Of a stretch of DNA of 64,000 nucleotides, positions 6,493 to 42,821 are shown one piece after another. The notes beneath the pieces were generated by a model. The model was not told the origin of the DNA. It ran no database searches and saw nothing but the letters and a program-made list of their open reading frames with translations. The stretch covers positions 1 through 64,000 of the forward strand of contig PABK01000006.1 of assembly GCA_002699145.1 (NCBI GenBank). Direction: 5' to 3'. Within the stretch, counting starts at the first letter, position 1. Each line of letters starts with the position of its first letter. The DNA is from Halioglobus sp. Lineage in GTDB: Bacteria; Pseudomonadota; Gammaproteobacteria; Pseudomonadales; Halieaceae. A program made the position numbers and the translations under genes.

Positions 6493-6498
6493 TGCCCG

Positions 6499-28080: not shown

Positions 28081-28438
28081 GGGGGCGATTTGGATTCGAC
28101 GACGGTAACGAACCCTCAGGTGCATGCCGTGATGGCAGCGAATCACGTTAATCCAAAGCTGTAAACTGTTAGTTGCCAACGACGACAACTACGCTCTGGC
28201 GGCATAAACCCCGCTAGCGGTCTTTAGCAAGGTGCCAGTACCGCGCTACTGACTGTCATATAGAACTGGATCGCAGTGAGGCATGTCCCGGGCACCGCTG
28301 CTAAATCCTTTACGGGGCTCGCCAATCACGTCCTGACCGTTGGGCTGTGTGCGGTTAAATCAATTAACGGACTCTAAGCATGTAGAGCCTCAGGCAGAGT
28401 GCTGGCGGACGCGGGTTCAACTCCCGCCGCCTCCACCA
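28081..28438 (+). ncRNA. ssrA: Transfer-messenger RNA (tmRNA)
   Basis: 358-base tmRNA for rescue of stalled ribosomes. The 5' end GGGGGCGATTTGGATTCGAC and the 3' end GGTTCAACTCCCGCC...CTCCACCA form the tRNA-Ala-like acceptor and T arms; seven acceptor pairs can be drawn (GGGGGCG with CGCCTCC, one G-U). The 3' CCA is encoded. The resume codon is GCC at 28175 and the tag frame at 28175-28207 reads ANDDNYALAA followed by TAA, the Pseudomonas-type variant of the E. coli tag. Its partner smpB is upstream. The lower-GC accessory block begins immediately after it. Confidence 0.97.
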
Positions 28439-28961
28439 AATTTTCACAACAGGCTGCCACAAGGTAGCCATAGCGTTCACTTACACACCCAACAGTCACC
28501 TCACACATCACCAGCGTCAGGCATCGCTCCCGCCACCGTGTCGTGATGATCAGCACCACCCGATATTAAACTTCAGATTGTACCGCTTGCCAAACGGTTG
28601 GTGTGGCGTAGTACCGTCGGTATTCTGTACCTTCTGTAGCAGTTTCTGGGCGAGCTTTCGCGCCAACATAATCCAGAGGGACTCGCCCTACTCGACACCC
28701 GAAGCCTGTTGATGACTATACCGGCCCAGCGCAAAAAATATCAGCAGTCCGGGTTCGCGCACAGCGCGCCTGCGACAAAGAACTGCCGGAATTGCTGTGC
28801 TAAGCTGAGCCAGCGCAGACGATTGTCGAGCCACACGGGGCTCACCGCGTCAACAGCAATAACGAAGGCTACTGTAACAAGCTGTTCACGGCTACACAGC
28901 CAACAACCCGCGGCGTTGTAATGCACGATCAATGGCGTAGTCACTTCGAGGTAAGGACAAC
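28439..28961. other. 523-base gap after ssrA, left edge of the accessory block
   Basis: No complete gene is visible. GC content drops right after the tmRNA end. On the minus strand at about 28549-28692 an open stretch reads GESLWIMLARKLAQKLLQ..., and ends with a stop after KFNIGWC; it is preceded by a stop and has no start, so it may be the C-terminal remnant of a lost gene, or chance. A TACCG-T-CGGTA dyad sits near 28607-28617. No integrase or recognisable attachment-site copy was seen. The last 50 bases hold the ribosome-binding site of the LuxR gene. Confidence 0.45.
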
Positions 28962-30092
28962 ATGTCGGAAACGATCGACTGCTCCGAACTCAGCCACTTG
29001 CTAGAACTTCTTTACGAAGGCGTTGAAAAATACGGGCTGTGGCAGGAGTTCCTCGAGCGCTTCAACGAGATGTGCAAGGCCAGGGATGCGTCCTTGATGA
29101 TGGTGAATCCGGGGCTCGATAATGTGTTGTACATCCTGTTTACCGATACGCGGCCCGAGGTCTCATCCGATTACATCGATGGTTCGCTCCGGGCGGCGGC
29201 GTTGATAAATGAGATACCCTGCCCGGTTCCTTCCACCATAACCGAGCTTATCTCAGAGGAGCGTTATCTCAACAGCGTGCTTTATCGCCAGTATTTCCAG
29301 CCTGTCGGCGTACGTCATATGTTAATGCAGGATATTCGACGAACGGGAGATTTCGTCATGCGCCTCACGGTGAAGCGGTCGGAGGACCAACCGCCGTTCG
29401 GCGACAGGGAGAAGCACATTTTCGACCTTATAGTGCCCCACCTGCGCAGAGCGCTGACCTTGCGATCGCATCACTACGAGAACCAGTACAGGCGCATTCT
29501 CTTTGAGGATACGATCAATCGCATGCGGGTCGGCTACATACTGCTCGATAGAAAGCTGCGCATCGTGGAACTCAATGACGTCGCCCAGGAATTCCTCCAG
29601 AATCGCGTGGGCCTGGCATCCAGCCGAGGAGTGCTGAAACTAGCCGAGCACGCCCGCAGCGACGAGTTCGAGTCACTACTTGCTGCGCTGATCGAGGAAG
29701 AGAACCACCGATTGCCGCACGACGGAACGATTGGCTGCCGTATCGACAATGAGATCGGTGAGCCGCTACTCAATATCGCCATGCGGCCGATACACGAGAT
29801 ACAGCAGGTCGCGCACGGCCCCGTCGTACTGCTGTACCTGTGCGATTTTAGCCCAGAAACAAAGCTCATCGAAGCCGATTTGCTGCGCGAGATCTTCGGT
29901 TTTACCCGCAGTGAAGCGAAACTCGCGGCGCTGCTGGCGATGGGGGAAAGCTCTGCCGAGGCCGCCGAGAAGCTCCACGTTTCAATCAACACCGTGCGCA
30001 CCCATTTGCGCGGCATCTACCATAAACTAGGCACGCACAAACAATACAAACTGGTCTCCATTCTCAATAGAAGCGTCGCCAGATTCCTCTGA
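28962..30092 (+). CDS. LuxR-type (helix-turn-helix) transcriptional regulator
   Basis: 376 residues. The C-terminal 65 residues are a LuxR/FixJ DNA-binding domain (FTRSEAKLAALLAMGESSAEAAEKLHVSINTVRTHLRGIYHKLGTHKQ). The N-terminal 300 residues have no phosphoacceptor receiver. They contain a PAS-like part around residues 185-250 (INRMRVGYILLDRKLRIVELNDVAQEFLQ), so the signal is probably a small molecule. AAGG lies six bases before the ATG. It is the first gene of the accessory block and points into the VOC-VOC-SDR operon; the most economical view is that it controls this catabolic cluster in response to its substrate. Confidence 0.85.
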   Translation: MSETIDCSELSHLLELLYEGVEKYGLWQEFLERFNEMCKARDASLMMVNPGLDNVLYILFTDTRPEVSSDYIDGSLRAAALINEIPCPVPSTITELISEERYLNSVLYRQYFQPVGVRHMLMQDIRRTGDFVMRLTVKRSEDQPPFGDREKHIFDLIVPHLRRALTLRSHHYENQYRRILFEDTINRMRVGYILLDRKLRIVELNDVAQEFLQNRVGLASSRGVLKLAEHARSDEFESLLAALIEEENHRLPHDGTIGCRIDNEIGEPLLNIAMRPIHEIQQVAHGPVVLLYLCDFSPETKLIEADLLREIFGFTRSEAKLAALLAMGESSAEAAEKLHVSINTVRTHLRGIYHKLGTHKQYKLVSILNRSVARFL

Positions 30093-30222
30093 TCGCGGTT
30101 CCCACCCTCGCGCCAAGGCATCGCCGTGGCACAAGTAAAATCATCAAAAGTAATGAAGATATACGCGCTGCGGACGATAAGAATTAGCTGCATCCAGAAT
30201 CAAAACAAAGTGGAGACAGCGC

Positions 30223-30696
30223 ATGATTCAATTCCTCAAAGTAATCGATATTGCGGTCAAGCTCGAGAATCTCGACAAGGCCACCAAGACCTGGGAAGAC
30301 CTTCTCCAGGTTGAACACATTCCGATGAAGGAAGAGTACAACCCGGACGGCGGCGTAAGGGCCAATCACCTGCCGCTCCCCGCCGGAGAACTGGCCTGTC
30401 ATGCGATCGGCTTGATGGCACCGAAAGATGACGGCAGTGAAGGTGGCCAGGTTTTGCGACAACATCTCGAGCGTTACGGGGAGAGCGTCTACCTGCTGGG
30501 TTTCATGGTTGAAGACGTTTACAAAACGCAGCAAGAGCTCATGAAGAAGGGCTTCGAGTTTCGCTCGCCTGAGCCTACCCGCTACGCAGCCGGCATCCAC
30601 AACATCACCAAACCCCATGACGGGCTCCAGGGTCTGAGTATCCAGATCGCCTGTCATGACCAGGGTGCGCTGGACCGCTGGCGAGACGGGCAGTAA
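30223..30696 (+). CDS. VOC-fold protein, first of a tandem pair
   Basis: 157 residues resembling the vicinal-oxygen-chelate (glyoxalase/dioxygenase) superfamily: FLKVIDIAVKLENLDKATKTWEDLLQVE, then a second half beginning YLLGFMVEDVYKTQQELMKKGFEF. Position four of the first strand, where metal-binding VOC proteins have His, is Ala within DIAV, so the canonical metal site is not intact. Two histidines occur elsewhere (HLPLPAGELACHAIG). It is about 40% similar by eye to the next gene. GGAG precedes the ATG by seven bases. Probably an operon with the following VOC and SDR genes. The reaction is unknown. Confidence 0.7.
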   Translation: MIQFLKVIDIAVKLENLDKATKTWEDLLQVEHIPMKEEYNPDGGVRANHLPLPAGELACHAIGLMAPKDDGSEGGQVLRQHLERYGESVYLLGFMVEDVYKTQQELMKKGFEFRSPEPTRYAAGIHNITKPHDGLQGLSIQIACHDQGALDRWRDGQ

Positions 30697-30720
30697 GGCA
30701 AACAAAGGGGGGAGCTCCCG

Positions 30721-31269
30721 ATGAGATACTTGCAATTCATTAAGACCATCGATGTCGCTGTCAGGGACAAGAAGTCACTGGATTTTTCCGTCGCAACCTG
30801 GGAGAACTTACTGGGCGCGGACGCCATCGAAATGAAGCCAGAGTATAGTCCCGCCGGTGGCGTGTCCGCTTTTCATGTGCCCATGCCCACCGGAGAGTTG
30901 GCTTGTCATTCAATCGGCGTGTTCATGCCGACCAACGATGAGGCCGTCAACCCGGTTGGCGGCAGCAACCTGAAGGATTTTATGGACAAACATGGCGAGT
31001 CGACTTTCCTGCTGTCCTTCATGGTCGAGAACGTCGAGGAAGCCCAGGCCTACCTGGAGGGCATCGGATTCAAGTTCTTCTACGATGAACCCGTACGCTA
31101 TGCCGCCGGTACGCACAACTTCATGCAGGGACCCGAGGAACTGCAGGATCTCTGGATTCACATCTGTCGTCATGACGAGGGCGGTCTTGAACGATGGCTT
31201 GAGGGAGAGGAAGATTCCGGCCCCTATGCCGATCAGGAGATGGGCAAAAAAGCTCGCGACTACGACTGA
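30721..31269 (+). CDS. VOC-fold protein, second of a tandem pair
   Basis: 182 residues, clearly a paralogue of the preceding protein. Shared landmarks are the FxKxIDxAV start, the EYxPxGGVxAxHxPxPxGELACHxIG block, the FMVE(N/D)V strand and a PxRYAAGxHN motif near residue 127. It has an extra acidic tail after residue 160. Like its neighbour it lacks the first-strand metal histidine. A strong GGGGGGAG site lies upstream and only 24 bases separate the two genes. Two diverged copies side by side suggest either a hetero-oligomer or two successive steps on related substrates. Confidence 0.7.
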   Translation: MRYLQFIKTIDVAVRDKKSLDFSVATWENLLGADAIEMKPEYSPAGGVSAFHVPMPTGELACHSIGVFMPTNDEAVNPVGGSNLKDFMDKHGESTFLLSFMVENVEEAQAYLEGIGFKFFYDEPVRYAAGTHNFMQGPEELQDLWIHICRHDEGGLERWLEGEEDSGPYADQEMGKKARDYD

Positions 31270-31311
31270 TGCACCGTCCGTGTCTTCTCCTGCTCCAGTC
31301 TGTGACAGCGC

Positions 31312-32070
31312 GTGATTGATCTGCGAAACGATGGCAGGGTCGCCCTGGTTACCGGCGCCGCCTCTGGCATCGGCCGGGCGACCGCCTTCGAATTGGCGCA
31401 GTACGGCGCAACAGTAGCGCTGGCCGACAGAAACGAAAAAGGACTCGTTTCTACCGCCGAACTGGTCCGCGCCGAAACCGGTGCCGATCATCACGCCTTC
31501 GTCTACGATGCCGAGCAGCCCGATTCCTGCCGCGCGCTCGTGAAATCCGCGTTCAAACACTTCGGGCGCCTGGATGCGGTGTGCAACATCGCAGGCATCG
31601 CCGGCTCCTGGCACTCTCACGAGATGCCTTCGGCAGCATGGAACCAGATGCTCGCCATCAACCTTACCAGTACCTTTACCATCTGCCAGGCGGCGATTCC
31701 GTACTTGCACGATGGGGCCGCCGTTGTCAATGTGGCGTCCGCCTCGGGGGTCATTGGACAGGCGTATCATGCCGGTTACTGCGCAAGCAAGGCCGGCGTC
31801 ATCGGCCTGAGCAAGTCGCTCGCCATGGAGTACGCGGACCGTGGCATTCGTGTCAACGCGGTTTGTCCAGGCGGCACCACCACACCGCTACTGGATGACT
31901 ATCGATTCCCTGAAGGTTACAACGAGGCGCTGATCTCACGCTTACTGCCCAAGCTACCGCAGGCAGAACCATCAGAGATCGCGGGCTTGATCGTACTTCT
32001 CTGCAGTCCTGCGGGACGCTTTTTCACGGGCGCCGCTATTTCAATGGACGGCGGGCAAACCGCGGGCTGA
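31312..32070 (+). CDS. Short-chain dehydrogenase/reductase
   Basis: 252-residue classical SDR. The NAD(P)-binding glycine motif TGAASGIGRA lies near residue 14, the NAG-equivalent NIAG near residue 92, the catalytic Ser in VNVASASG, YCASK as the Tyr-x3-Lys pair, and the C-terminal GAAISMDGGQTAG. An acidic residue after the second strand (LADRNE) suggests NAD preference. The start is GTG at 31312. It is the last gene of the LuxR-side operon and is convergent with a luciferase-like gene. Confidence 0.85.
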   Translation: MIDLRNDGRVALVTGAASGIGRATAFELAQYGATVALADRNEKGLVSTAELVRAETGADHHAFVYDAEQPDSCRALVKSAFKHFGRLDAVCNIAGIAGSWHSHEMPSAAWNQMLAINLTSTFTICQAAIPYLHDGAAVVNVASASGVIGQAYHAGYCASKAGVIGLSKSLAMEYADRGIRVNAVCPGGTTTPLLDDYRFPEGYNEALISRLLPKLPQAEPSEIAGLIVLLCSPAGRFFTGAAISMDGGQTAG

Positions 32071-32074
32071 GCCG

Positions 32075-32089
32075 CCTGATCACATCAGG
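32075..32089. terminator. Hairpin between convergent SDR and monooxygenase genes
   Basis: A perfect 6-bp stem CCTGAT/ATCAGG with a 3-base loop sits four bases after the SDR stop, in a 39-base gap between convergent genes. No T-run follows, so termination is a guess from position. Confidence 0.35.
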
Positions 32090-32109
32090 GCAGGTTCAGC
32101 CTTACCGGC

Positions 32110-32985
32110 TCAACTCATCACCGCAATCACTTCGTCAGCAAATCGTGCAATAGCATCCACTTTCTCGGCCACTGGGGGATTGATAGCACCGCAATACGTC
32201 ACCCAGGGCATCAATGTAACCGTGTCGATACCCATATCGAACATGCTCTGGAATCCCGCAACACCAACCGCATCCGTACATCCGAAGGCAAAGCGACGGA
32301 ACTGACGCGACTGGGTTCCCGCGGCCACGCGACATGCTTCCAAATCGCCCACCAGCTTCTCCAGTTCCGCGAGCGAATGCAGGTCAGCGATCCAGCCATC
32401 ATGCCGGGCGGCCCGTTTCAATGCCGGCGTGGAGAAACCGCCGACGTAAACGGGAATGTCCGTGTACGGTCGGGGCAACATGCGCATCGGCTGCAAGGTG
32501 TAGTGCTCTCCATCGAACTCAACGTACTCCCCCGTCCACAACGCCCGCATAACCTGCAGCATTTCGTCGGCACGCCTGCCGCGCCTGGCAAAATCCTGGC
32601 CCGCCGCATCGAACTCCTCCGGCATCCACCCCATTCCTATGCCCAGCCCGATCCGGCCGCGGCTGTAGATGCTGGCGGACGAAAGAATCTTCGCTACCTG
32701 CACAGGATTTCTCGCAGGCAATACAAAAACATTGGTGAGGAATTCCAGTTGGCGTGTAATCGCCGCCATCGCGGTGATGGCAATCCACGGATCGGGGAAG
32801 TCGTCCTTGTCACCAAAACGCGGCACACCGTCATCGGTATAAGGGTAGGGTACTGAAAACGACTTCGGATAAATCAGGTGGTCGGCAACTGATACGGCAC
32901 GGAAACCATTCTGCTCAGCGGCCAACGCCAGTGTTGTGTAGTCCTCGGGGGAAGAAAATGCGATGGAAAGACAGAACTTGGGCAC
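32110..32985 (-). CDS. LLM class flavin-dependent oxidoreductase (TIGR03619-like)
   Basis: 291 residues of the luciferase-like fold. Landmarks are AAEQNGFRAVSVADHLIYP, QLEFLTNVFVLPARNPVQVAKILSSASIYSRGRIGLGIGMGWMPEEFDAAGQDFARRGRRADEML and a GGFSTPALKRAARHDGW segment. This pattern matches the subgroup often named probable F420-dependent oxidoreductase. It probably oxidises or hydroxylates an intermediate of the catabolic cluster with FMN or F420. It lies downstream of the TonB receptor on the same strand but behind a terminator. Confidence 0.82.
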   Translation of the reverse strand: MPKFCLSIAFSSPEDYTTLALAAEQNGFRAVSVADHLIYPKSFSVPYPYTDDGVPRFGDKDDFPDPWIAITAMAAITRQLEFLTNVFVLPARNPVQVAKILSSASIYSRGRIGLGIGMGWMPEEFDAAGQDFARRGRRADEMLQVMRALWTGEYVEFDGEHYTLQPMRMLPRPYTDIPVYVGGFSTPALKRAARHDGWIADLHSLAELEKLVGDLEACRVAAGTQSRQFRRFAFGCTDAVGVAGFQSMFDMGIDTVTLMPWVTYCGAINPPVAEKVDAIARFADEVIAVMS

Positions 32986-33029
32986 GATGACCTCCGGCTG
33001 GTATGGGGTCCTGGAAACGGGTTCAGACC

Positions 33030-33069
33030 TAAAAAGCGGAGCGCCGGCGGAAGAGTCCGCGGGCGCTCC
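33030..33069 (-). terminator. Intrinsic terminator after the TonB receptor gene
   Basis: The arms GGAGCGCC (33037-33044) and GGCGCTCC (33062-33069) pair perfectly, with an inner GCGGA/TCCGC extension. On the minus strand the stem is followed by a run of five T (33030-33034). It starts 11 bases beyond the receptor stop codon. This is a standard Rho-independent terminator. Confidence 0.75.
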
Positions 33070-33080
33070 GAAGGCTCGGC

Positions 33081-35624
33081 CTAGAATTCCTTCATCAGTT
33101 GAAGGGAATAGGTGCGGGGAGTCTGGATAGCGCCTATCACCAGCTCACCCACCAGGTTGGTCGGTTGCCGGGTCACGATTGCATCTTCGTCGGTGATATT
33201 GTCGATGCGCGCCGCGACGGTCCAGCCGTTGCCGGGGCTGAGCAAGGCTACCCGCGCGAACATACTGTGCGTATCCTCCGAGTAGAAGTCATCCGAAGCA
33301 GAAACGGAGAACTCGTCGGTGTAGGTTGCGCCCAGTGAAGTCTCCAGGGCGAGATTACCACCCAGCGGCCGGTTGTAATCGAAGATAAGGGTCGCCTGGT
33401 TGTCCGGTGCTCTTTGCAGGGGTTTGCCGCCCAGGTCTTGTGTGCAACCGTCACCCACATTGGGATCAAAGATCGAGCACGGCGCCGTGTCAAAATCATC
33501 GTACTCCGCATCAAGATAGGTATAGGCGAAGTAGGCGGTCAAGCCCTCGCTGATAAGCCATGTCGACTCGATCTCCAGGCCTTGGGATGTGGCGTTCGCG
33601 GCATTCTGAAAGCTAAAAGTCCCTGTCTCGTTCACAGCGGCCAATTGCAGGTCGTCGAATTCCGTGCGGAAAAGAGAGAGGTTGAGCTGCGCTGCACCAT
33701 CCATCAGCCCGAGCTTGGCGCCCAGTTCATAGCTGATCGCTTCCTCGCTGTCGAATTCGGTCACGCCGGCCGACGTAACCGAATCGAGATTGAAACCACC
33801 GCCCTTGAAACCCGTGGACACGGCGGCGTAGTACATGGAGTCGCCGTGAAAGTACTGCAATTTGACACTTGGTGTCACTGCATCCTCATCCCGGCTGTCA
33901 TCGAATTTTCCGTCGGGTAGCTGGACATAGGAATAGGCCAGTGCCACGGTATCTGCGACGGCCGTATAGAAGTCATCGGACAGATCGCCTACCGGGAACC
34001 CTGGCGCCACCGAGCCGGCGTCGAGGCCGCCCGGATAGGCCGCAGCGGCCGCCAGGACGGCGGGGTCTGCGCTGATCTGGGCCATGTAACCGTCGATCCA
34101 GTCGTAGGAGCTCAGCGGATCACCTATCGAATTGCGATTGATAAACGGTTTTTTCGCATCCAGTTCGTCGTAGTTGTAGCGCACCCCGGCGATCAGTTGC
34201 CAGCTGTCATTGAACTGATAACGACCCTCGAAATAAACCGACCAGATATCACGTTCCAGCTCCTGAACACCAGGCCCCAGGTCCACAGTAAGTCGTGCCC
34301 CGCTGATCAAGGCATCCTGGATCGCCTGGATACCCGGCTGCGCAACATCCAGGCTGTCAGGGTCGAGCACCTGATAGGGAACCAGCAGGGTCGGCACCAC
34401 AAGGCCGTCCGAGATGCCACCGCTGGCGTCGAAATCCAGTGCCGCCGGACCCGAGCGCTCAATCTGGTTGTTCTCGACATAGGCGCCAGCGATGAACGAG
34501 AAGCGGCCATCGTCCGGCGAACGAATCTGGATTTCCTGAGACCAGGTCTCGTACTCCTGATCATTCCATGTCGGGAGAGAACCCAACATCAGGAAATCCG
34601 AGTCGATACGGCGCTCATTAGTGTAGTCCACGTAGTTGGTAGTTGCCGTAAGGTCGTATCCGGAGTCAAACTTATACATGAATTTCAGCAGGGCGAGATC
34701 GCCGTCCTGCCCCTGGCCCTTGGTTTCCCGGTCGAGAATCGTACCCTGCACGAAGTCTGCGGGCCCCACAGCCTGATTCTTGTCAACCCTGGCTTCCAGT
34801 TGCTCCTGGGGCAATAACTGGAATCTCCGGGTTTGCAGAATAGAGGGATCCAGCACTTCCACTAGCTGGTAGATCGAACCCACGTTCTGGTGATCGATGT
34901 TCTCATACTTCATATCGACACTGAGCGCGTCAGATGCATCCCAGCGCAACCGCAGGCGAAAATTCTCGTCCTCTATGCCGCCACCATCGCGCCCGGCCGA
35001 GTTATCCATCCAGCCGTCACTCTCTGCCTTCAACGCGGACACTCGGCCATACAGGCCATCGGCCAACTGACCGGAAACCGCCATCTCGCCACGGTACAGT
35101 TCATAGTTCCCAGCCTCGAGCTTGACATACCCCTCAAATTCCTCGGTGGGCTGTGTTGTCGAGATCTGCAGCACGCCGCCAAGCGCATTCTTGCCGAACA
35201 GCGTACCCTGTGGGCCACGTAGGATCTCGATTCGATCCAGGTCGTAAAAACCGGAGGCAATCAGCCTGTTGTTGCTGATGAATGCCCCGTCGATCAGGGT
35301 AACGACCGGACTCTCGATAATGTCGGAGCCCGTTCCCGCAAAGCCCCGAATGGCGACCCTGGTAACCGACTCGGCACCCCCCACCTGGAAGCCAGGCACA
35401 TAATTCGCAAGGTCGTTGAGATTATTGATCCCGCGGGATTCGAGTTCTTCACGGGTGGTTACCGACACTGAGATGGGCACATCCTGCAAACTCTCGGTTC
35501 GCTTCTGGGCTGTGACCAGGACCTCCTCCAGCTTCAGACCCGGAGCATCCTGCCCCAACGCAACACCGGACGAGAGTGCGGTGAAAATCGAAAAACAATG
35601 AACAGAAATTTTGCGTACTTTCAT
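33081..35624 (-). CDS. TonB-dependent outer-membrane receptor
   Basis: 847 residues. A signal peptide ends near residue 24 (ALGQDAP). A TonB-box-like LEEVLVTAQKR is followed by the plug domain (residues about 45-160, with GINNLNDLANYVPGFQVGGAESVTRVAIRGFAGTGSD) and a 22-strand barrel ending in the typical aromatic terminus (YSLQLMKEF). It belongs to the large sphingomonad/Cellvibrionales-type receptor group used for carbon compounds and not only for siderophores. Its place within a catabolic cluster, with no siderophore genes, suggests import of the cluster's hydrophobic substrate. Confidence 0.93.
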   Translation of the reverse strand: MKVRKISVHCFSIFTALSSGVALGQDAPGLKLEEVLVTAQKRTESLQDVPISVSVTTREELESRGINNLNDLANYVPGFQVGGAESVTRVAIRGFAGTGSDIIESPVVTLIDGAFISNNRLIASGFYDLDRIEILRGPQGTLFGKNALGGVLQISTTQPTEEFEGYVKLEAGNYELYRGEMAVSGQLADGLYGRVSALKAESDGWMDNSAGRDGGGIEDENFRLRLRWDASDALSVDMKYENIDHQNVGSIYQLVEVLDPSILQTRRFQLLPQEQLEARVDKNQAVGPADFVQGTILDRETKGQGQDGDLALLKFMYKFDSGYDLTATTNYVDYTNERRIDSDFLMLGSLPTWNDQEYETWSQEIQIRSPDDGRFSFIAGAYVENNQIERSGPAALDFDASGGISDGLVVPTLLVPYQVLDPDSLDVAQPGIQAIQDALISGARLTVDLGPGVQELERDIWSVYFEGRYQFNDSWQLIAGVRYNYDELDAKKPFINRNSIGDPLSSYDWIDGYMAQISADPAVLAAAAAYPGGLDAGSVAPGFPVGDLSDDFYTAVADTVALAYSYVQLPDGKFDDSRDEDAVTPSVKLQYFHGDSMYYAAVSTGFKGGGFNLDSVTSAGVTEFDSEEAISYELGAKLGLMDGAAQLNLSLFRTEFDDLQLAAVNETGTFSFQNAANATSQGLEIESTWLISEGLTAYFAYTYLDAEYDDFDTAPCSIFDPNVGDGCTQDLGGKPLQRAPDNQATLIFDYNRPLGGNLALETSLGATYTDEFSVSASDDFYSEDTHSMFARVALLSPGNGWTVAARIDNITDEDAIVTRQPTNLVGELVIGAIQTPRTYSLQLMKEF

Positions 35625-35743
35625 ATTATTCTCTCCAACTCAATGTGTAGCAGACGCCGATCAAGCATGGTGAGTCGCTATGTTCCACGATATCCGCTGC
35701 CGTTTGCTTCACCATAAATGATGAATTCCCCGCAGAACCGGGC

Positions 35744-36505
35744 TCAGAACAAATCGGGACGCAGTGTGGCGTCGTGTCCGCCATCTACAAACAGAACTGA
35801 TCCGCATACATAGCTCGCTTCCCTGCGCAGTAAAAAGCAGATCGCCGCGGAGATATCTGTGGGTTTGCCTTCGAATCCCACCGGGATAGTCTTGATGAAC
35901 TCCTCGATCATAGGCCCGTACTCGGGGTTCTTCCGGCCGGCGTCGGTGAGTGCTGTCTTTGTGAATCCAGGCGCAACCGCATTAAGCCGTATACCGTCCC
36001 GGGAATAATCCCGCACATGATTGCGCATCCAGGTGGCCACGCAGTACTTCGATGTCGCATAGGCTGACTGCCCTTCAATCCCGGCGCAATAGGCCCGGGC
36101 ACCGCACTCATCAAGCGACCCCAGCAAGCGCGCCAGCTCCTCGTCCCGCTCATAAGCCGCCGTATTGGACGACACCAGGACTGCCGCTCCCTTACGTTGT
36201 GAAAGCCGGCTCCTGACACCCTGCAACAGGTCGATGGTTCCAAAGAAATTCAGGCTGGCAATTTCCTCCACCGGCTGGAAATGCGGTCCGACCCCCGCGC
36301 AGGAAACAAATCCATCGAGGCCGCCCTCAAGCGATCCCTGCAACTCCCGGATGGCCGCCGACCTGCCATCGCTGGTGGACAGGTCGGCATTGACGTCGCC
36401 CCCCCGGATATCCACCACTACGACAGAGTGTCCCTCTCCCCGTAATGTCTCTACTACGGCGCCCCCGATCCCGGCAGCGCCTCCTGTCACCAGATATTTC
36501 CCCAT
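35744..36505 (-). CDS. SDR resembling 3-alpha-hydroxysteroid dehydrogenase (HsdA-like)
   Basis: 253 residues. It is distinguished from ordinary SDRs by a set of features I recall from Comamonas testosteroni 3-alpha-HSD/carbonyl reductase: VVDIRGGDVNADLSTSDGR after the second strand, the CAGVGPHFQPVEEIASLNFFG segment, and the ending GHDATLRPDLF. The catalytic pair is YATSK. The glycine motif is TGGAAGIGGA. The steroid link is a remembered similarity and not a search. It is divergent from the next SDR; the 186-base gap has two short dyads (CTGAT/ATCAG 36551-36569 and TCATC/GATGA 36611-36626) that could be operators. Confidence 0.75.
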   Translation of the reverse strand: MGKYLVTGGAAGIGGAVVETLRGEGHSVVVVDIRGGDVNADLSTSDGRSAAIRELQGSLEGGLDGFVSCAGVGPHFQPVEEIASLNFFGTIDLLQGVRSRLSQRKGAAVLVSSNTAAYERDEELARLLGSLDECGARAYCAGIEGQSAYATSKYCVATWMRNHVRDYSRDGIRLNAVAPGFTKTALTDAGRKNPEYGPMIEEFIKTIPVGFEGKPTDISAAICFLLRREASYVCGSVLFVDGGHDATLRPDLF

Positions 36506-36691
36506 ATCAATTTCCCTCAGGTAAGTTCGCCGGCATTATCGGATGAAATCCTGATACCTGCTTCATCAGAAACTATGAAATCTCAGCCCTGGCTTATGCG
36601 CTGCCCAATTTCATCGATTGTGATGAGGTGATTCGCTGCGCGTTGTCTAGAATCCGCAATAGTCATTGCAAATTCAGGAGTTACTACCGCC

Positions 36692-37471
36692 ATGCAATCT
36701 CCCTGGTCCAGGGTTCAGTTTGATTTCTCGGGCCTGACCGTGCTCGTAACCGGCGGCACGGCTGGCATTGGGGCCGGCATCGCCGCGGCGTTCCACGACG
36801 CCGGTGCCACGGTCGCCATCACCGGAACGCGGGACAGCCCGGACAGCTACCCCGACGATCTGACCCGCTTCCGCTATCTGCAATACCGTGCGGACAGACG
36901 CGACGATATCGACAAGATCGGGAATCAGCTCGATTCCCTGGATGTGCTGGTCAATAACGCTGGTGGCACGGGAAAGCAACCGGAGGACTTCGCCGCCTCC
37001 ATGCAAAATAACCTGATTGGCACCTACTATCTGTCGGACCGGTTGCATACGCTCCTTGCTCAATCCAAGCTGGAAGGCGGGGCCAGCATCGTCAATATCA
37101 GCTCCTTCTACGCGGTATTCGCCTCCGTGTACTACCCCGGTTACGGCGCGGCGAAGGCCGGCCTTGTACACCTGACTAAGACACATGCCGCCAACTGGGC
37201 TCCCCTTGGAATCAGGGTGAACAGCCTCGTGGTCGGCTCCGTCGAGAGCCGCATGACAGCCGAATACGTGACGGAGGAAGAAGTCACTGCCAAACTTATG
37301 GAACGCACCCCGATCGCGCGCTGGGGTACCCCTAAGGACGTGGCAGGCGCGGCACTGTTCCTCTCATCCCCCGCGGCGGCCTATATCACCGGCGATTCCC
37401 TCGCGGTCGATGGTGGCTACTGCGCCATCGACAGGGCCTGGGGGAGCATGGCGGACCTGAGCAGGGAGTAA
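36692..37471 (+). CDS. Short-chain dehydrogenase/reductase
   Basis: 259-residue SDR with TGGTAGIGAGIA, the NNAGG motif near residue 90, SSFYAVFASVYYPGYGAAK holding the catalytic Tyr and Lys, and a C-terminal AVDGGYCAIDRAWG. AGGAGT precedes the start ATG. It starts a three-gene plus-strand operon with the SnoaL-like and luciferase-like genes (gaps of 35 and 52 bases). Substrate unknown. Confidence 0.85.
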   Translation: MQSPWSRVQFDFSGLTVLVTGGTAGIGAGIAAAFHDAGATVAITGTRDSPDSYPDDLTRFRYLQYRADRRDDIDKIGNQLDSLDVLVNNAGGTGKQPEDFAASMQNNLIGTYYLSDRLHTLLAQSKLEGGASIVNISSFYAVFASVYYPGYGAAKAGLVHLTKTHAANWAPLGIRVNSLVVGSVESRMTAEYVTEEEVTAKLMERTPIARWGTPKDVAGAALFLSSPAAAYITGDSLAVDGGYCAIDRAWGSMADLSRE

Positions 37472-37506
37472 CCCATGAACAATCAGTAAAGGAGTGCCGA
37501 GAAATC

Positions 37507-37980
37507 ATGCCTGATAACGACATAGTCGAGCTGTTTGCCATCGAGGCGATCAAATCGCTGAAGCACCGCTACATTCGCGCCATGATCACTGCCGACTGGG
37601 CGCTGTTCGAGGATTGCCTGACAACTGACGTAAAAACCCAATACTCCGACGGCGCATACACGTTCTCCGATCGTGAATCGGTCGTCAAGTTCCTGCGCAG
37701 CACACACGATCCGGCAGGAACCAGCGCTCTCGGCTACTGGCATGTCACCATGCCGGAAATTTCCCTTACAGGAGAAGACGAGGCGGATGGCACCTGGGCC
37801 ATGTACCACTTTTTTCTCGATCGGTCCCACAATCGACAACTCGAAATGTTTGCTTACTACCATGACAGGTACCGGCGCGAGAACGGGCACTGGAAAATCT
37901 GCGAGACTGGCTACACAAGAGTGCTGGAACAGCAACTGGACCGCAATACCGTATCCGGTTACGAGGTGCTGATACCGTGA
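37507..37980 (+). CDS. SnoaL/NTF2-like protein resembling bile-acid 7-alpha-dehydratase (BaiE-like)
   Basis: 157 residues with the alpha+beta-barrel cone fold (SnoaL_4 type). The order of motifs is close to what I recall of Clostridium scindens BaiE: EAIKSLKHRYIR near residue 13-24, a YSDG block near 46, WHVTMPEI at 78-85, a WAMYHFFLDR strand at 97-106 and GHWKICETGYTRVLE near 132. Tyr22, His79 and Asp105 fall where BaiE has its Tyr30, His83 and Asp106. BaiE's Asp35 has no equivalent at that exact position. A dehydratase or isomerase role on a polycyclic substrate is inferred. Second gene of an SDR-SnoaL-LLM operon. Confidence 0.72.
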   Translation: MPDNDIVELFAIEAIKSLKHRYIRAMITADWALFEDCLTTDVKTQYSDGAYTFSDRESVVKFLRSTHDPAGTSALGYWHVTMPEISLTGEDEADGTWAMYHFFLDRSHNRQLEMFAYYHDRYRRENGHWKICETGYTRVLEQQLDRNTVSGYEVLIP

Positions 37981-38032
37981 ATGCTAACAGCGCCCGGCAA
38001 CCGTTCACTCCCGGCTACAGTATAAACAACAG

Positions 38033-38941
38033 ATGACCGAGATCAGCCTGTCTCTGTATGGCCTGGACAGGCTATGCGGAAATCGCATCGAGCCGGTACT
38101 GGACATTGTCAGGGAGATCGACGCGTCCTCGGTCGACACGCTGATTGTCACGGACCACGTGGTCATGGGTGAGCACACTGAAGCCTACCCCTATGGCGAC
38201 TTCCCCACCCCGCCCGACACCCCCTGGTGGGAGCCGATGATCCTGCTTGCGCACATCGCGGCTATCAGCCGCCGCGTACAGTTAGGCACTGGTATCTTGA
38301 TCGCGCCCCTGCGCCCCCCTGCCCTCCTGGCCAAGCAATGCACCACGCTCGACCAGCTGTGCGGTGGAAGACTTGTGCTCGGCGTAGGCTCAGGCTGGCA
38401 ACGTGAAGAATTTCAGGCCTGCAACGTCTCTTTCGCAAACAGGTTTCAATTGATGCGCGAGCAGTTACGAGCATGCCGCGCGATGTGGAACGATTCGCCG
38501 GCCACGCATCACTCCAAACATGTCAACTTCGACCGAATCTACTGCCGACCCGGGCCCTGTAGTGAACGGCGAATTCCACTTTGGTTCGGCCTAAAGGCGA
38601 CTCAACGCAACGCGCAGTTTATCGCCGAGGTGGGAGATGGGTGGTTACCGATTATCAATACGCCGGAGACAGAACTGGAACGCTCCATCACCTTGCTGCG
38701 CCACAGTTACGACGTAGCGGGGCGCGACCCATCGAGCCTGCGGGTCAAAGTCAGCATGATCCCCCGCCGGCGCGACGAGGGAATGCCAGACCTGGACGTG
38801 ACTGTGAAAGACATGCGCCGCCTACAGGCTCTTGGCGTCACGGACTTCGAATTCAACTCGTCCATGTTTGTGCAGGCGCCCGAGGATGTGCCCTCGCTCC
38901 TCTCCTGGCTGGATGCGGTGCGCGCCGCGATCAACGCGTGA
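38033..38941 (+). CDS. LLM class flavin-dependent oxidoreductase
   Basis: 302 residues of the luciferase-like fold, with SVDTLIVTDHVVMGEHTEAYPYGDFP, RRVQLGTGILIAPLRPPALLAKQCTTLDQLCGGRLVLGVGSGWQREEFQACN and a GLKATQRNAQFIAEVGDGW segment. It is related to, but clearly different from, the protein at 32110-32985. Last gene of the plus-strand operon; it is convergent with the SRPBCC gene, with an 8-base gap. Having two such enzymes in one cluster suggests two oxygenation or F420/FMN redox steps. Confidence 0.82.
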   Translation: MTEISLSLYGLDRLCGNRIEPVLDIVREIDASSVDTLIVTDHVVMGEHTEAYPYGDFPTPPDTPWWEPMILLAHIAAISRRVQLGTGILIAPLRPPALLAKQCTTLDQLCGGRLVLGVGSGWQREEFQACNVSFANRFQLMREQLRACRAMWNDSPATHHSKHVNFDRIYCRPGPCSERRIPLWFGLKATQRNAQFIAEVGDGWLPIINTPETELERSITLLRHSYDVAGRDPSSLRVKVSMIPRRRDEGMPDLDVTVKDMRRLQALGVTDFEFNSSMFVQAPEDVPSLLSWLDAVRAAINA

Positions 38942-38949
38942 AGCGGCGC

Positions 38950-39384
38950 TTAGGCGTCCAGGTGTAATTCGATCCAGCCGGCGATTTGCCGGTATACAGC
39001 AAGCATGATCTCGCGGGCCTCCTCCGGCGAGGCCCCTCGCGGCCGAAAAGTGCCATGCCAGGTTACTCGGCACGTCGAAGGTCCCTCCATTGAGAGACTC
39101 ACCTCTGCGCGGTAATCGGCAACAGGGTATGGAAGATCGCCGCTTACGACGTAGCCATAATGGTGCGCACCGGGTTCCTTGAAGGCCAGCTCCTCGCGCA
39201 CGGCGCCGACACCTGGCAGAGCGATAGTCCTGGACATGCCGACGCCCGTACCTTGCGTCGTCACATTGAGATCGCCGGGAATCCAGTGCAGGTCGCCAAA
39301 GTTATCCAGCAATCGCCACACTGTATCGAGCGGCAGAGCCAGGTCGTGACTATAGACGGCTTCCACCGCTTCCAGCGCGCTCAT
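38950..39384 (-). CDS. SRPBCC (polyketide cyclase/START-like) protein
   Basis: 144 residues: AVYSHDLALPLDTVWRLLDNFGDLHWIPGDLNVTTQG... and YRAEVSLSMEGPSTCRVTWHGTFRPRG, ending in a long C-terminal helix, as in polyketide_cyc2/SRPBCC proteins that hold hydrophobic ligands. It is the last gene of a minus-strand operon and overlaps the preceding VOC gene by four bases (ATGA). A binding or cyclase-type role is possible; nothing more specific can be read. Confidence 0.75.
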   Translation of the reverse strand: MSALEAVEAVYSHDLALPLDTVWRLLDNFGDLHWIPGDLNVTTQGTGVGMSRTIALPGVGAVREELAFKEPGAHHYGYVVSGDLPYPVADYRAEVSLSMEGPSTCRVTWHGTFRPRGASPEEAREIMLAVYRQIAGWIELHLDA

Positions 39385-39863
39385 CGCAGGTGTGACGGAA
39401 TCCAGCCACCCTCGCTACGATGGTCGGTGATCACTTCGATGAGCTGCCCATCCGGGTCACGTACATAGGTCGCGTGGCTAAATGCAGCGCGCGCACCGCT
39501 CAGCTCGGGGAGGATAGTCTCCTCCAGCACCTCTCCTCCATACTGCACGACCCGCCTGCGCACCTCGGCCACGTCTTCTACCCGCATGTTAAGGTGAGTA
39601 AGCCCAGGCTCATTCAGTGCCCGCTCACGAAATGGCTTCATGCCGGGATCGAGATTCTGCATCAGTTCCAGCGTGAAACCGCTCTTGACGAGCATCATGA
39701 CCCTGACGCGACAGGGGAGTGGGAGCCGCATCAGGGTGGCGGTATCCTCTCCCTCCACATCGATCGTTGTGTCGAGGCTGAATCCAAATACCTCTTCATA
39801 GAAAAGTCGGGACCGTTCCAGATCGGTGACCGACAGCCCGATATGACTCCAGTGAATCTCCAC
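39381..39863 (-). CDS. VOC family protein with intact metal site (glyoxalase/dioxygenase-like)
   Basis: 160 residues. The four expected metal ligands are all present: His in WSHIGLSV at residue 7, Glu in FTLELMQ, His in LTHLNMRV and Glu in LIEVITDH. That makes it a functional-looking metal VOC enzyme, unlike the two VOC genes at 30-31 kb. Possible reactions are lyase, isomerase, epimerase or extradiol dioxygenase. It is nine bases downstream of the SDR gene in a four-gene operon (flavoprotein, SDR, VOC, SRPBCC). Confidence 0.82.
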   Translation of the reverse strand: MEIHWSHIGLSVTDLERSRLFYEEVFGFSLDTTIDVEGEDTATLMRLPLPCRVRVMMLVKSGFTLELMQNLDPGMKPFRERALNEPGLTHLNMRVEDVAEVRRRVVQYGGEVLEETILPELSGARAAFSHATYVRDPDGQLIEVITDHRSEGGWIPSHLR

Positions 39864-39872
39864 GCCCTTCTC

Positions 39873-40661
39873 CTAGTGTGGCAGGTAATCGCCGCCATTC
39901 ACATCCAGATTCGCTCCAGTTACCGCACTGGCGTAATCAGACGCCATGAACAGTGCGGCGCCGGCGCACTCCTCGTCCGTTGGAATTCTACGCAGTGAGA
40001 TGCGTTGCGCGATTTCCGCCTCCACTTCCTCTCGGGGGATACCGCGTTCAGAAGCCTGGTGTTCAAGAAAGGCGACAACATTGGGGCCATGCATCCAGCC
40101 CATAAACAGGGAGTTGACCCTGATGCCGTACTGTCCTAACTCCAGCGCGAGGTGCGAGGATGCGCTGCCGAGCGCAGCCTTGGACGCCGCGTAGCCGGCG
40201 TTATACATCATGGGCTTGTGTACCACCATGGTGTTGATCATGACAATTGATCCTGAACCCTGCTCCTTCATGGCGCCGATCACGGACTGTGTGATATGCA
40301 TACTACCGACAAGGTTGGTATTGACCGTGTCGATCCAGTCGTCCATGTCGGCGTGCTCAATAGGCCCCATGCTACCACCGCTGTAGGCATTGTTGATCAG
40401 CACGTCGATGCGGCCGAACTCGTCGATTGTTTGTTGCGCCAGCCGTTCGCACTGGCCACGGTCACGAATGTCGGTCTGAACCAATAGCAGGCGGGCGTCC
40501 GGCGTGACGTCGAGCACGTGCTGGCGCGCTCTTTCAAGTCCCTCCTCGCCGCGGGCTGCCAGCACCACCGCGGCGCCTTCCGCCGCCGAACGTGCAGCCA
40601 GATGCTGGCCGAGACCTGGCCCTATGCCGGAAACGATAACAATCTTGTCTTGAAGCAGCAT
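39873..40661 (-). CDS. Short-chain dehydrogenase/reductase
   Basis: 262 residues. The glycine motif is SGIGPGLGQH, in place of the classical TGxxxGIG, a variation seen in a subset of SDRs. NNAYSGG replaces the NNAG motif. The catalytic YAASK is intact and the C-terminus reads TGANLDVNGGDYLPH. An alanine-arginine pair after strand two (LAARGE) suggests NADP use. It is the second gene of the minus-strand operon, 31 bases after the flavoprotein gene. Confidence 0.82.
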   Translation of the reverse strand: MLLQDKIVIVSGIGPGLGQHLAARSAAEGAAVVLAARGEEGLERARQHVLDVTPDARLLLVQTDIRDRGQCERLAQQTIDEFGRIDVLINNAYSGGSMGPIEHADMDDWIDTVNTNLVGSMHITQSVIGAMKEQGSGSIVMINTMVVHKPMMYNAGYAASKAALGSASSHLALELGQYGIRVNSLFMGWMHGPNVVAFLEHQASERGIPREEVEAEIAQRISLRRIPTDEECAGAALFMASDYASAVTGANLDVNGGDYLPH

Positions 40662-40691
40662 GATGTTCCTCTTCGTGTATCAAGTAATGGC

Positions 40692-42821
40692 CTAGACGGT
40701 GCGCCCGGCCTCGAAGCCCTGTGAGATGGCACCGGGGATATAGCCGACGTCGTTACAATCACCCGCCAGGGTAACGTCGAAGCCGGCTTCACGAATCGTC
40801 TCCGCCAGCGGTGAACCAGCTGTCACCCCGACACAAAGGATCACGGTGTCGACCTGGATCGTCCGCTCCTGTGTACCATTGAAGGTATGCGTTAGACGCC
40901 CTTCCGCGATTCGCAGTACCTGGGTATTTCCTAGCAGCTTGACGCCCAGCTGGCGGATATCGTGGAGATTGCGCCACCGACGGACCAGTGAAAGCTCTTT
41001 GCCAAACACTGAACCAGATTCGAGAATCGTGACGTTGCGACCGCGCTGTGCAAGAAACTCCGCGAGTTCCACAGCGACGAGTCCGCCACCTACCAGCGCC
41101 ACGTTCTTGCCCAGTGGCATCCAGACACGGGTAAAAAGCCGCAGGAACGCACTATTGGCCGTCAGGCCGCTCAAGTGGCCCATGCGCATCATAAGGCGGG
41201 TAAGGGGGTTGGTCCGCTGCAACAGGCGCGGTGTAACATTCCCGGTCATCATATCGCGAATATCGTCACCATCCAGCACATGTGGCAGGTCCACCCCGGG
41301 GATTGGCGGCAGCTCTCGGCCAGCACCCGTTGCCACGATCACAGCGTCTGCGGATATCCTGCGCAACATGTCCGCGGTCACCTCCTTTCCATAACGGACG
41401 GCGACGGCATGCTTACGCAGTTGCGCGGACAGGTAACGCACCAGCGGACCGTTCTCGGGATAGGAGACGGCCGAGAAGCCAGTCGTTCCTCCGAGCCTGG
41501 CGTTTTTCTCGAAAAGCGTCACGCTATGTCCCCGAGAAGCGGCTACTCTGGCTGCTTCCATCCCCGCGGGACCGCCACCGATCACCGCCACTCTTTTCGG
41601 TTGCCCGGCTTGCTCGAGAGCAACCGCATGCTCGTTCCCGGTGAGCGGATTTACCGCACAGCAGATACTCTCACGCCTGAAAATTCGTGAAATACAGGTG
41701 TAGCAGTAGATGCAGGGGCGGATATCCTGTGTCCGACCTTCGCGTAGCTTGTTAGGAAGCTCCGGGTCCGCAAGCAGCTTTCTAGCCATAGCGACGAAAT
41801 CGATGCTGCCTTCGTCGATAAGAGCCCTGGCTCTCTCCGGTTCCAGACGCCCAACGCCAATGACGGGAATATCCAGTACAGAGCGGATTCTGGCCGCGTA
41901 GGGAATAAAACTTTCCGGCGTGTGCGTGGCGTGGGCTGTAGAGTAGCTCACACCGCGGCTGGCATCGGCATAGGCGGAGCAGTGAATCGCGTCCGCGCCG
42001 GCCTCCTGTGCCAGTTGCGCCGTGACACATGCGTCCTCCACCGAGATGCCGCCAGTCGTGAGAAATTCCGTAGAATCCAGGCGGCACCATACGGGATAGT
42101 CCCGCCCGATTTCCTCCTTGATCGCCCGGATGATCTGCACCAGCAGCCGCGAGCGGTTCTCGATACTGCCGCCATACTCGTCCGTGCGACAGTTAACCGA
42201 GGGGTTCAGGAAATTGGAAATCAGGTAACCATGCCCGGCGTGGATTTCTACGCCATCGATTCCGGACTCACGCGCCCTGCCAGCGGCCGAGACGAAGTGG
42301 GAGATTACCCATTCAATATCGCTGGCCTCCGCGACCCGGTATGAAACGGACGCTCCGGGCCGCATGTAAGGCTCGGACATCAGCCCGATTTCCTCTGGCT
42401 GACAGTCTCCCGCCATGTCAGCATCTTTCGCGGCCGGCTCCGAGGGACACAACAGCGGTCGACCATCACCACAGTCGTCCACTGCGCCGAGCCCTGCGTG
42501 TTGCAACTGCAGCGCAATTCGGCTGCCGTGCTTGTGAACGCGACTCGCCAGTTCCGTGAGCCCGGGAATAAACCTGTCTTCTGAAACCGCGACGTGCCGC
42601 GGGTTTGCCGCTCCGGACGGCCAGGCCACCGCTACCGATCCCATGGTCACCATCGCAGCCCCGCCCGCGGCACGCGCTTCGTAGTAGGCCTGGATACGGT
42701 CACCGCAGAATCCACCCTCTTCCGCAAGGTTGGAACCCATGGGGCTCATGATAATGCGATTACGCAGTTCCAGTTTGCCGATCCGGCCAGGCCTGAAGAG
42801 ACTCTCGAAACGCCGACGCAT
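40692..42821 (-). CDS. OYE-like NADH:flavin oxidoreductase fused to FAD/NAD domain (BaiCD/2,4-dienoyl-CoA reductase type)
   Basis: 709 residues. An N-terminal FMN TIM barrel (1-370: FRPGRIGKLELRNRIIMSPMGSN, HAGHGYLISNFLNPSVNCRTDEYGGSIENRSRL) is followed by a [4Fe-4S] cysteine cluster (RPCIYCYTCI...ICCAVNP, about 385-405) and a C-terminal FAD/NAD(P) part with GGGPAGMEAARVAASRGH and GGGLVAVELAEFLAQRG. This is the architecture of 2,4-dienoyl-CoA reductase, trimethylamine dehydrogenase and the bile-acid enzymes BaiCD/BaiH. It probably reduces or oxidises an enone C=C in the catabolic cluster. First gene of a four-gene operon. Confidence 0.85.
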   Translation of the reverse strand: MRRRFESLFRPGRIGKLELRNRIIMSPMGSNLAEEGGFCGDRIQAYYEARAAGGAAMVTMGSVAVAWPSGAANPRHVAVSEDRFIPGLTELASRVHKHGSRIALQLQHAGLGAVDDCGDGRPLLCPSEPAAKDADMAGDCQPEEIGLMSEPYMRPGASVSYRVAEASDIEWVISHFVSAAGRARESGIDGVEIHAGHGYLISNFLNPSVNCRTDEYGGSIENRSRLLVQIIRAIKEEIGRDYPVWCRLDSTEFLTTGGISVEDACVTAQLAQEAGADAIHCSAYADASRGVSYSTAHATHTPESFIPYAARIRSVLDIPVIGVGRLEPERARALIDEGSIDFVAMARKLLADPELPNKLREGRTQDIRPCIYCYTCISRIFRRESICCAVNPLTGNEHAVALEQAGQPKRVAVIGGGPAGMEAARVAASRGHSVTLFEKNARLGGTTGFSAVSYPENGPLVRYLSAQLRKHAVAVRYGKEVTADMLRRISADAVIVATGAGRELPPIPGVDLPHVLDGDDIRDMMTGNVTPRLLQRTNPLTRLMMRMGHLSGLTANSAFLRLFTRVWMPLGKNVALVGGGLVAVELAEFLAQRGRNVTILESGSVFGKELSLVRRWRNLHDIRQLGVKLLGNTQVLRIAEGRLTHTFNGTQERTIQVDTVILCVGVTAGSPLAETIREAGFDVTLAGDCNDVGYIPGAISQGFEAGRTV

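Follow-up and report, generated by a model that had tools for sequence, protein, structure and literature searches.

A candidate gene cluster for aerobic steroid catabolism with F420-type enzymes in Halioglobus sp.

Introduction

The first 64,000 bp of contig PABK01000006.1 from Halioglobus sp. (assembly GCA_002699145.1; family Halieaceae), referred to here as the window, carry between positions 28962 and 42821 a block of genes whose products resemble enzymes of bile-acid dehydroxylation (BaiE, BaiCD), a hydroxysteroid dehydrogenase (HsdA) and luciferase-like oxidoreductases. What does such an assortment do in a gammaproteobacterium, and on which substrate? An original prediction, made from the DNA alone, suspected a catabolic cluster for a steroid- or terpenoid-like compound that follows the logic of the bai genes. 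The reading that best accounts for the data presented below is a so far unreported variant among the clusters for aerobic steroid catabolism, one that makes use of cofactor F420. We consider it moderately probable that the block is a catabolic module that was acquired and that serves the aerobic degradation of steroids. Published work is cited throughout from extracts of the papers.

Enzymes with steroid-type relatives

The block holds 14 intact open reading frames (ORFs), among which Pfam and NCBIfam matches recover every gene type of the original prediction; the family matches, reaching E 2.3e-127, the break in composition and the recurrence of part of the block, both described below, make the grouping more than a matter of chance. 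Four encode short-chain dehydrogenases/reductases (SDR1 to SDR4). SDR2 (35744..36505, minus strand) contains the YxxxK motif, and its best PDB matches are the 3-alpha-hydroxysteroid dehydrogenases (3-alpha-HSDs) 1fjh (E 1.5e-46) and 2dkn (3.4e-44), against which the next family (2e-19) falls short by 25-27 orders of magnitude. With 3-alpha-HSDs as its closest solved relatives the protein is, as had been proposed, a member of the HsdA family (3-alpha-hydroxysteroid dehydrogenase/carbonyl reductase). The SnoaL_4/NTF2 protein (37507..37980, plus strand; hereafter SnoaL) has three BaiE sequences as its only meaningful PDB sequence matches (E 1.6e-17), and in a fold search with its predicted model (mean pLDDT 85.5) BaiE chains occupied ranks 1-4, followed by LinA.

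The third enzyme is a 709 amino acid flavoprotein (40692..42821, minus strand; PF00724, PF07992) of the old yellow enzyme type (OYE), with the OYE/FMN, [4Fe-4S] and FAD arrangement of BaiCD and of 5-beta-delta4-KSTD1 from Sphingobium strain Chol11. Cys370, Cys373, Cys376 and Cys388 are invariant in all six aligned sequences, that of the window included. The BaiCD architecture claimed for it is therefore borne out by its domains and four cysteines; equivalence to BaiCD is not, the score against the BaiCD model NF041087 being 417.7 bits where the cut-off is 825. Relatives with 47-51% identity are found in Sphingobium TomTYG65, on plasmid pNL2 and on Vibrio alfacsensis plasmid pYa108, and their surroundings are of the steroid type. 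In TomTYG65 (locus L013) KstD-like and KshA-like (KshA_C) genes lie within 5 kb of the OYE gene. On pNL2 (L014, L182, L183) an IpdA-like gene is located 11 kb away, its best PDB match being 6co6 (E 5.1e-78), which we take to be IpdAB, and genes annotated as FadD3 and steroid delta-isomerase follow at about 25 kb. For plasmid pYa108 (L015, L210; OYE 47%) the annotation lists a Rieske protein and a FadD3-type ligase. It also lists a thiolase beside an OB-fold protein and a 4-hydroxy-2-oxovalerate aldolase, and together with the OYE these genes hint at a steroid or bile-acid degradation set.

The conserved core

The order was scanned in 390 genomes (the present one included) drawn from a larger group, at chosen E-value limits of 1e-120 for OYE, 1e-60 for the luciferase-like LLM1 and 1e-70 for IpdA. 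Since kinship between genomes makes counts of genomes non-independent, counts by genus (142 genera) are given alongside. Strong OYE relatives occur in 50 of the 390 genomes, and 20 regions around strong matches were fetched. Conservation of the neighbourhood was assessed in fetched loci of at least 12 kb with an OYE of at least 40% identity over 500 columns; these were 35 loci representing 33 distinct places (L182 repeats L014, and L144 repeats L034), those from the scan of genome contigs being among the matches listed.

OYE, SDR1 (31312..32070, plus strand; 44-53% identity) and SDR3 (36692..37471, plus strand; 45-51%) occur together in six of these 33 neighbourhoods: L127, L128, L129, L130 and L132, five of the 20 regions fetched from genomes of the same order, and L013, from the Sphingobium TomTYG65 plasmid. 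The neighbourhood comparison that the original prediction had called for thus yielded a core in five further genomes of the order and one sphingomonad plasmid. Added to it are the LuxR-family regulator in five of the six clusters, and LLM1, SnoaL and SDR4 in four each. The five gammaproteobacterial cores have an OYE with 53-57% identity to that of the window; no core was seen where identity falls below 51%, nor in L133 (51.9%), although some contigs with good OYE matches, that of G166 for example, are too short to judge. Because the core recurs in other genomes, a chance gathering of SDRs was rejected as an explanation. By eye, the L128 and L129 clusters adjoin apparent threonine dehydrogenase and KBL genes.

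The regulator (28962..30092, plus strand; 376 amino acids; GerE, 34.8 bits) has homologs with 29-33% identity in those five clusters. The PAS-like sensor part attributed to it was not recovered, no PAS domain being found with Pfam at E ≤ 0.001. SDR4 (39873..40661, minus strand; 42-56% in its four clusters) scores 325.4 bits against NF005909 (cut-off 258) and has a single PDB relative at E ≤ 1e-45, named only short chain dehydrogenase; SDR3 has none at E ≤ 1e-40.

Steroid-type genes in the host and across the order

The genome that carries the block also encodes genes of the steroid ring-degradation type. Contig 28 contains a FadD3-IpdA operon co-linear with that of pNL2, comprising FadD3 (727 bits, cut-off 657), IpdA, its beta partner, a nitronate-monooxygenase-type protein, presumably IpdC, a hydratase, acyl-CoA dehydrogenases, SDRs and thiolases. 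Six KshA_C matches exceed the cut-off. On contig 55 (L145, L163) a KstD-like gene (582 bits, below the cut-off of 789) stands beside a KshA-like gene, with a second OYE gene (46%) some 7 kb further on; a P450 gene and an SDR3-like gene (45%) are found in the same region. An extradiol dioxygenase scores 249.9 bits against TIGR03213, below the cut-off of 366, and has 2zi8, presumably HsaC, as its nearest PDB relative. The genome thus possesses the KstD, KshA, HsaC and HIP genes that accompany a Chol11-type route, the KstD-like and HsaC-like members being the weaker, sub-cut-off ones.

Across the 142 genera IpdA is present in 19 of the 20 with OYE and in 17 of the 122 others; for LLM1 the corresponding figures are 18 of 19 and 18 of 123. 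Together with the HsdA-family SDR, the BaiE-related SnoaL, the plasmid neighbourhoods and the host genes, this co-occurrence supports the steroid-like substrate that had been suspected.

Luciferase-like enzymes and cofactor F420

The original prediction noted the two luciferase-like enzymes as generic additions to the block; they are indeed there, and the tie to F420 is what it missed. LLM1 (32110..32985, minus strand; 58-64% identity in four of the six core clusters) and LLM2 (38033..38941, plus strand) score 200.0 and 204.8 bits, respectively, against TIGR03619, an F420 subfamily with a cut-off of 166.9. The host F420 operon is complete: npdG, cofE, cofD, cofC and fbiC are adjacent on contig 41 (L164, 7942-14569), all above NCBIfam cut-offs. 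An SDR3-like gene (37%) lies beside this operon, and a regulator gene resembling the LuxR-type gene of the block (27%) about 4 kb beyond. Elsewhere in the window, in host-like DNA outside the block, 9098-10138 (minus strand) encodes a 346 amino acid luciferase-like oxidoreductase of the F420 type, as judged by eye.

CofE was found in all six genomes searched for it, this one included. In the scan of the order 104 of the 390 genomes have CofE and 45 have LLM1; 44 of the LLM1 carriers have CofE, and the sole one in which it is missing is 78% complete. By genus, CofE accompanies LLM1 in 19 of 19 cases as against 27 of the 123 genera that do not carry LLM1. Within the 46 CofE genera IpdA is found in 18 of 19 with LLM1 and in 6 of 27 without it.

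From these data we advance a tentative proposal, possible rather than probable: that aerobic steroid catabolism in Gammaproteobacteria of this order employs F420, with LLM1 as a hydride transferase that depends on this cofactor and has a steroid ring ketone or enone as its substrate; that this need would be a main reason why the F420 pathway has been kept; and that the block may be a mobile unit carrying this chemistry, whose SnoaL belongs to a clade in which a different elimination or isomerization site has replaced the BaiE dyad. The cofactor assignment has a competitor. LLM1 and LLM2 could instead be FMN-dependent monooxygenases, for example of the ring Baeyer-Villiger type, with the correlation to F420 a by-product of lineage; the fold neighbours of LLM1 do mix FMN enzymes (SfnG, SsuD, MsuD) with F420 enzymes, and the fold search did not separate the two kinds, a point that also tells against the F420 assignment. 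We regard this as somewhat unlikely in view of the near-universal presence of CofE with LLM1 in both genomes and genera, the passing of the TIGR03619 cut-off by both proteins, and the first PDB sequence match, which is an F420 enzyme (4.8e-15), if only narrowly ahead of a luciferase-like monooxygenase (6.2e-14).

Alternative substrates and activities

Several further observations weigh against the steroid and F420 readings, and they are gathered here together with the alternatives to which they lend weight. LLM1 orthologs also occur outside the cluster (G132, G142, G156, G189 contig 1, G229), and no LLM gene was found in the sphingomonad clusters L013 and L014, the related TomTYG65 locus L017 giving one weak match. 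None of the five other gammaproteobacterial core clusters yielded a counterpart of SDR2, which places SDR2 outside the shared core; it does occur near more distant OYEs in six of the 33 places (L030, L034/L144, L140, L141, L143, L171). Close counterparts of VOC1, VOC2 and LLM2 are lacking in most core clusters. The TIGR03213 cut-off was passed in none of the six genomes searched.

The OYE gives similar reason for caution. Of four homologs of 5-beta-delta4-KSTD1 that were assayed one was active (CasH, 28% identity), and three with 44-62% identity were inactive (PMC8044976). Consequently, OYE function is not transferable at 44-57% identity. Moreover, the substrates of OYEs in the KSTD1 subgroup include non-steroids, daidzein among them (PMC8044976).

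As to SnoaL, the catalytic dyad of BaiE is D35/H83 (PMC11045871). In an ungapped stretch the D35 position is occupied by I or T in all seven cluster SnoaL orthologs, and W takes the place of H83 in the six that were aligned with BaiE. The next residue is H in the cluster proteins (Q in L127), and HMMER placed the histidine differently. The numbering of the PDB chain is offset, and Tyr30 is taken as catalytic. Both D and H are retained in two proteins outside the cluster clade, SARO19600 of pNL2 and L189_14093. Nor is the likeness to BaiE confined to the cluster in these comparisons, because both proteins score well against the same BaiE stretch: the six cluster SnoaLs reach 64.6-85.4 bits locally (the window protein 64.6), whereas among 25 other NTF2-type proteins of these loci L189_14093 reaches 86.4, above all six, and SARO19600 reaches 72.2, above that of the window; six more score 12.8-46.0 bits and 17 gave no match. 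On the alignment, then, SnoaL is BaiE-like in fold and ancestry with the known catalytic site lost in this clade; the relationship to BaiE that had been claimed holds for descent and not for the dyad. A role as 7-alpha-dehydratase was rejected. Steroid dehydratases of the SnoaL/BaiE fold are described from aerobes, namely Hsh2 (PMC12175502) and SteC (PMC13101464). The two dyad-keeping proteins (14093-14776 of L189, genome G142, and 7589-8122 of L014, pNL2) are candidates for true BaiE/Hsh2-type dehydratases.

These residues bear directly on the possibility that the block is an aerobic bile-salt module like that of Sphingobium Chol11, in which a 3-alpha-HSD, a 5-beta-delta4-KSTD and a 7-alpha-dehydratase act on bile salts in that order. 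A 3-alpha-HSD-like SDR2, an OYE of the right architecture and a BaiE-related SnoaL would supply the three enzymes. Against this stand the replacement of D35 and H83, the confinement of the three-step set to the window that follows from the absence of SDR2 in the other gammaproteobacterial cores, and the lack of a side-chain CoA ligase among the 14 ORFs; we consider a bile-salt module quite improbable.

A second alternative keeps the module and changes the substrate to a non-steroid alicyclic compound, such as a di- or triterpenoid, a cyclic monoterpenoid or another plant or algal polycycle, the steroid likeness then reflecting families shared by pathways for alicyclic ketones. Many alicyclic pathways draw on SDR, SnoaL, LLM, VOC and KstD-type families. 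No block gene reaches a steroid-specific NCBIfam equivalog cut-off, and the KstD-type matches in L013, L014 and L145 stay below theirs. G189, a core genome that is 93% complete, gave neither a KshA_C nor a TIGR03213 dioxygenase match. This substrate class is nonetheless unlikely in our estimation, given that SDR2 belongs to the HsdA family, that BaiE is the only PDB relative of SnoaL, that OYE and LLM1 co-occur with IpdA at the genus level, and that OYE relatives have steroid-type neighbourhoods.

Proposed route

The analysis shows the gene families, the conserved core, the break in composition, the pathway genes and F420 operon of the host, and the co-occurrence; from there we infer the substrate, the order and direction of every step, and the cofactor that LLM1 binds. 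In the steroid reading the TonB-dependent receptor (33081..35624, minus strand; barrel 108.9 and plug 74.6 bits) would import a steroid or a polycyclic compound closely related to one, which the LuxR-type regulator may sense. SDR2 would oxidize a ring hydroxyl, most likely that at C3, to the ketone, and the OYE would then introduce or remove the adjacent ring double bond, converting a 3-keto to a delta4-3-keto structure in the manner of 5-beta-delta4-KSTD, or the reverse. Further hydroxy and keto groups might be interconverted by SDR1, SDR3 and SDR4. The enone so formed would be the substrate of SnoaL and of the SRPBCC (Polyketide_cyc2) protein (38950..39384, minus strand), for an elimination or isomerization at a catalytic site other than that of BaiE. 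That these two fold types act together is suggested by a protein of the L127 core cluster (6309-7202) in which SRPBCC and SnoaL_2 are fused. LLM1, and perhaps LLM2, would use F420 instead of NAD(P)H to add a hydride to a ring ketone or enone or to withdraw one from it. The block as a whole would thus be an A/B-ring redox module, and its product would enter the 9,10-seco/HIP route which the host encodes elsewhere (KstD-like, KshA-like and HsaC-like genes and the FadD3-IpdA operon).

Comparison with known systems

The bai operon of Clostridium scindens and its relatives shares with the block a SnoaL protein of the BaiE family, the OYE/FeS/FAD architecture and an SDR. The differences are an OYE below the BaiCD cut-off, a SnoaL from which the BaiE dyad is missing, the lack of BaiB and BaiF, and a host with ring-degradation genes. 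As the original prediction had remarked, neither the BaiB CoA ligase nor the BaiF CoA transferase is found among the 14 ORFs. Membership of the bai operon was rejected on the missed cut-off, the lost dyad and the absent CoA genes, and on the first two, membership in the dehydroxylation logic as such is not supported either.

Aerobic degradation of the Chol11 type fits better. The different and possibly aerobic route that had been envisaged is supported; it is not new, for an aerobic route in which a dehydratase homologous to BaiE is joined by an OYE dehydrogenase resembling BaiCD has been published for Sphingobium Chol11 (PMC12175502, PMC8044976, PMC8399759). This delta4,6 variant of the 9,10-seco pathway (Hsh2, 5-beta-delta4-KSTD1/Nov2c019) has in common with the block a BaiE-homologous NTF2 protein and a BaiCD-like OYE/FeS/FAD enzyme in an aerobe, with KshA and HIP genes located elsewhere in the genome. 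The window OYE is likened to Nov2c019 by architecture and not as an established ortholog. The block differs in its SnoaL, devoid of D35/H83, and in the added LLM, VOC and LuxR genes; the regulators of Chol11 and Caenibius belong to the AraC, TetR and Lrp types (PMC12882949). The block is therefore probably a variant within the aerobic 9,10-seco pathway family and no bai cluster.

The nearest sphingomonad counterpart is the TomTYG65 plasmid cluster (TomTYG65_37020-37150), with OYE at 51%, SDR4 at 49%, SDR3 at 47%, SDR1 at 44% and LuxR at 29% identity, together with TonB receptors and SnoaL-type proteins. In contrast to the block it contains its own KstD-like and KshA-like genes, an MFS and an alcohol dehydrogenase gene, and no LLM gene was found there. 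Related Sphingobium strains such as RC1 degrade steroidal glycoalkaloids, TomTYG65 itself not being named in the extract (PMC10653915). Finally, LLM1 and LLM2 share their family and an F420-producing host with the F420-dependent luciferase-like hydride transferases of actinobacteria (FGD2/Rv0132c and TIGR03619 members); here, however, the host is gammaproteobacterial and the genes are clustered with steroid-type enzymes.

Remaining genes and probable acquisition of the block

Three genes encode VOC proteins: VOC1 (30223..30696, plus strand; Glyoxalase_4-type by Pfam), its tandem relative VOC2 (30721..31269, plus strand; 48-49% identity, below the Pfam gathering score) and the glyoxalase-type VOC3 (39381..39863, minus strand; Pfam). 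VOC1 proved a poor anchor: 139 further genomes of the family gave two marginal matches, plasmids a single record and viral contigs none. A two-domain VOC protein, each half of which is related to VOC1 and VOC2, is encoded at a second TomTYG65 locus, L017 (13527-14471), where the gene stands beside a P450 and where SDR3-, SDR4- and VOC3-like genes are also present.

The block has a G+C content of 0.58, compared with 0.658 in the left and 0.67 in the right flank, and its 14 genes have G+C values at third codon positions of 0.65-0.76 against 0.88-0.93 in five flanking genes. It begins just 3' of a tmRNA (ssrA) gene predicted with ARAGORN (28081..28438, plus strand), which forms its left border. 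Neither this gene nor the break in composition figured in the original prediction. The 3' side of ssrA is an insertion hotspot in the genus: a phage-type integrase directly follows the tmRNA gene in three of nine congeneric relatives inspected (L201, L204, L206; two of the integrases were checked and confirmed by Pfam). On the strength of its composition and of this position the block was probably acquired from elsewhere. Entry at ssrA is plausible and unproven, because tblastn with the integrases of two congeners gave no relict in 28440-28960 and no convincing match inside the block, no convincing exact att repeat was seen, nor any duplicate of the 3' end of tmRNA, and no empty site was found, the pilin operon on the right-hand side not following tmRNA in any of nine relatives with at least 3 kb downstream (two more stretches stop at or near a contig end). 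Promoter and terminator scans remained at chance level.

Significance

What is new is the cluster itself, the loss of the BaiE site in its SnoaL, and the link to F420; in the open-licence literature we found no paper joining F420 with steroid degradation, nor F420 with Halieaceae. Halieaceae and Spongiibacteraceae have been shown to degrade steroids, by a biochemistry described as little studied (PMC5790920), and for this the cluster supplies candidate enzymes. A 2021 review of F420 lists among unanswered questions why producers such as Proteobacteria make the cofactor (PMC8498797). For one group of these bacteria the joint distribution of LLM1, CofE and IpdA offers a concrete and testable answer and, if our reading is true, the block links the breakdown of steroids to an uncommon electron carrier.

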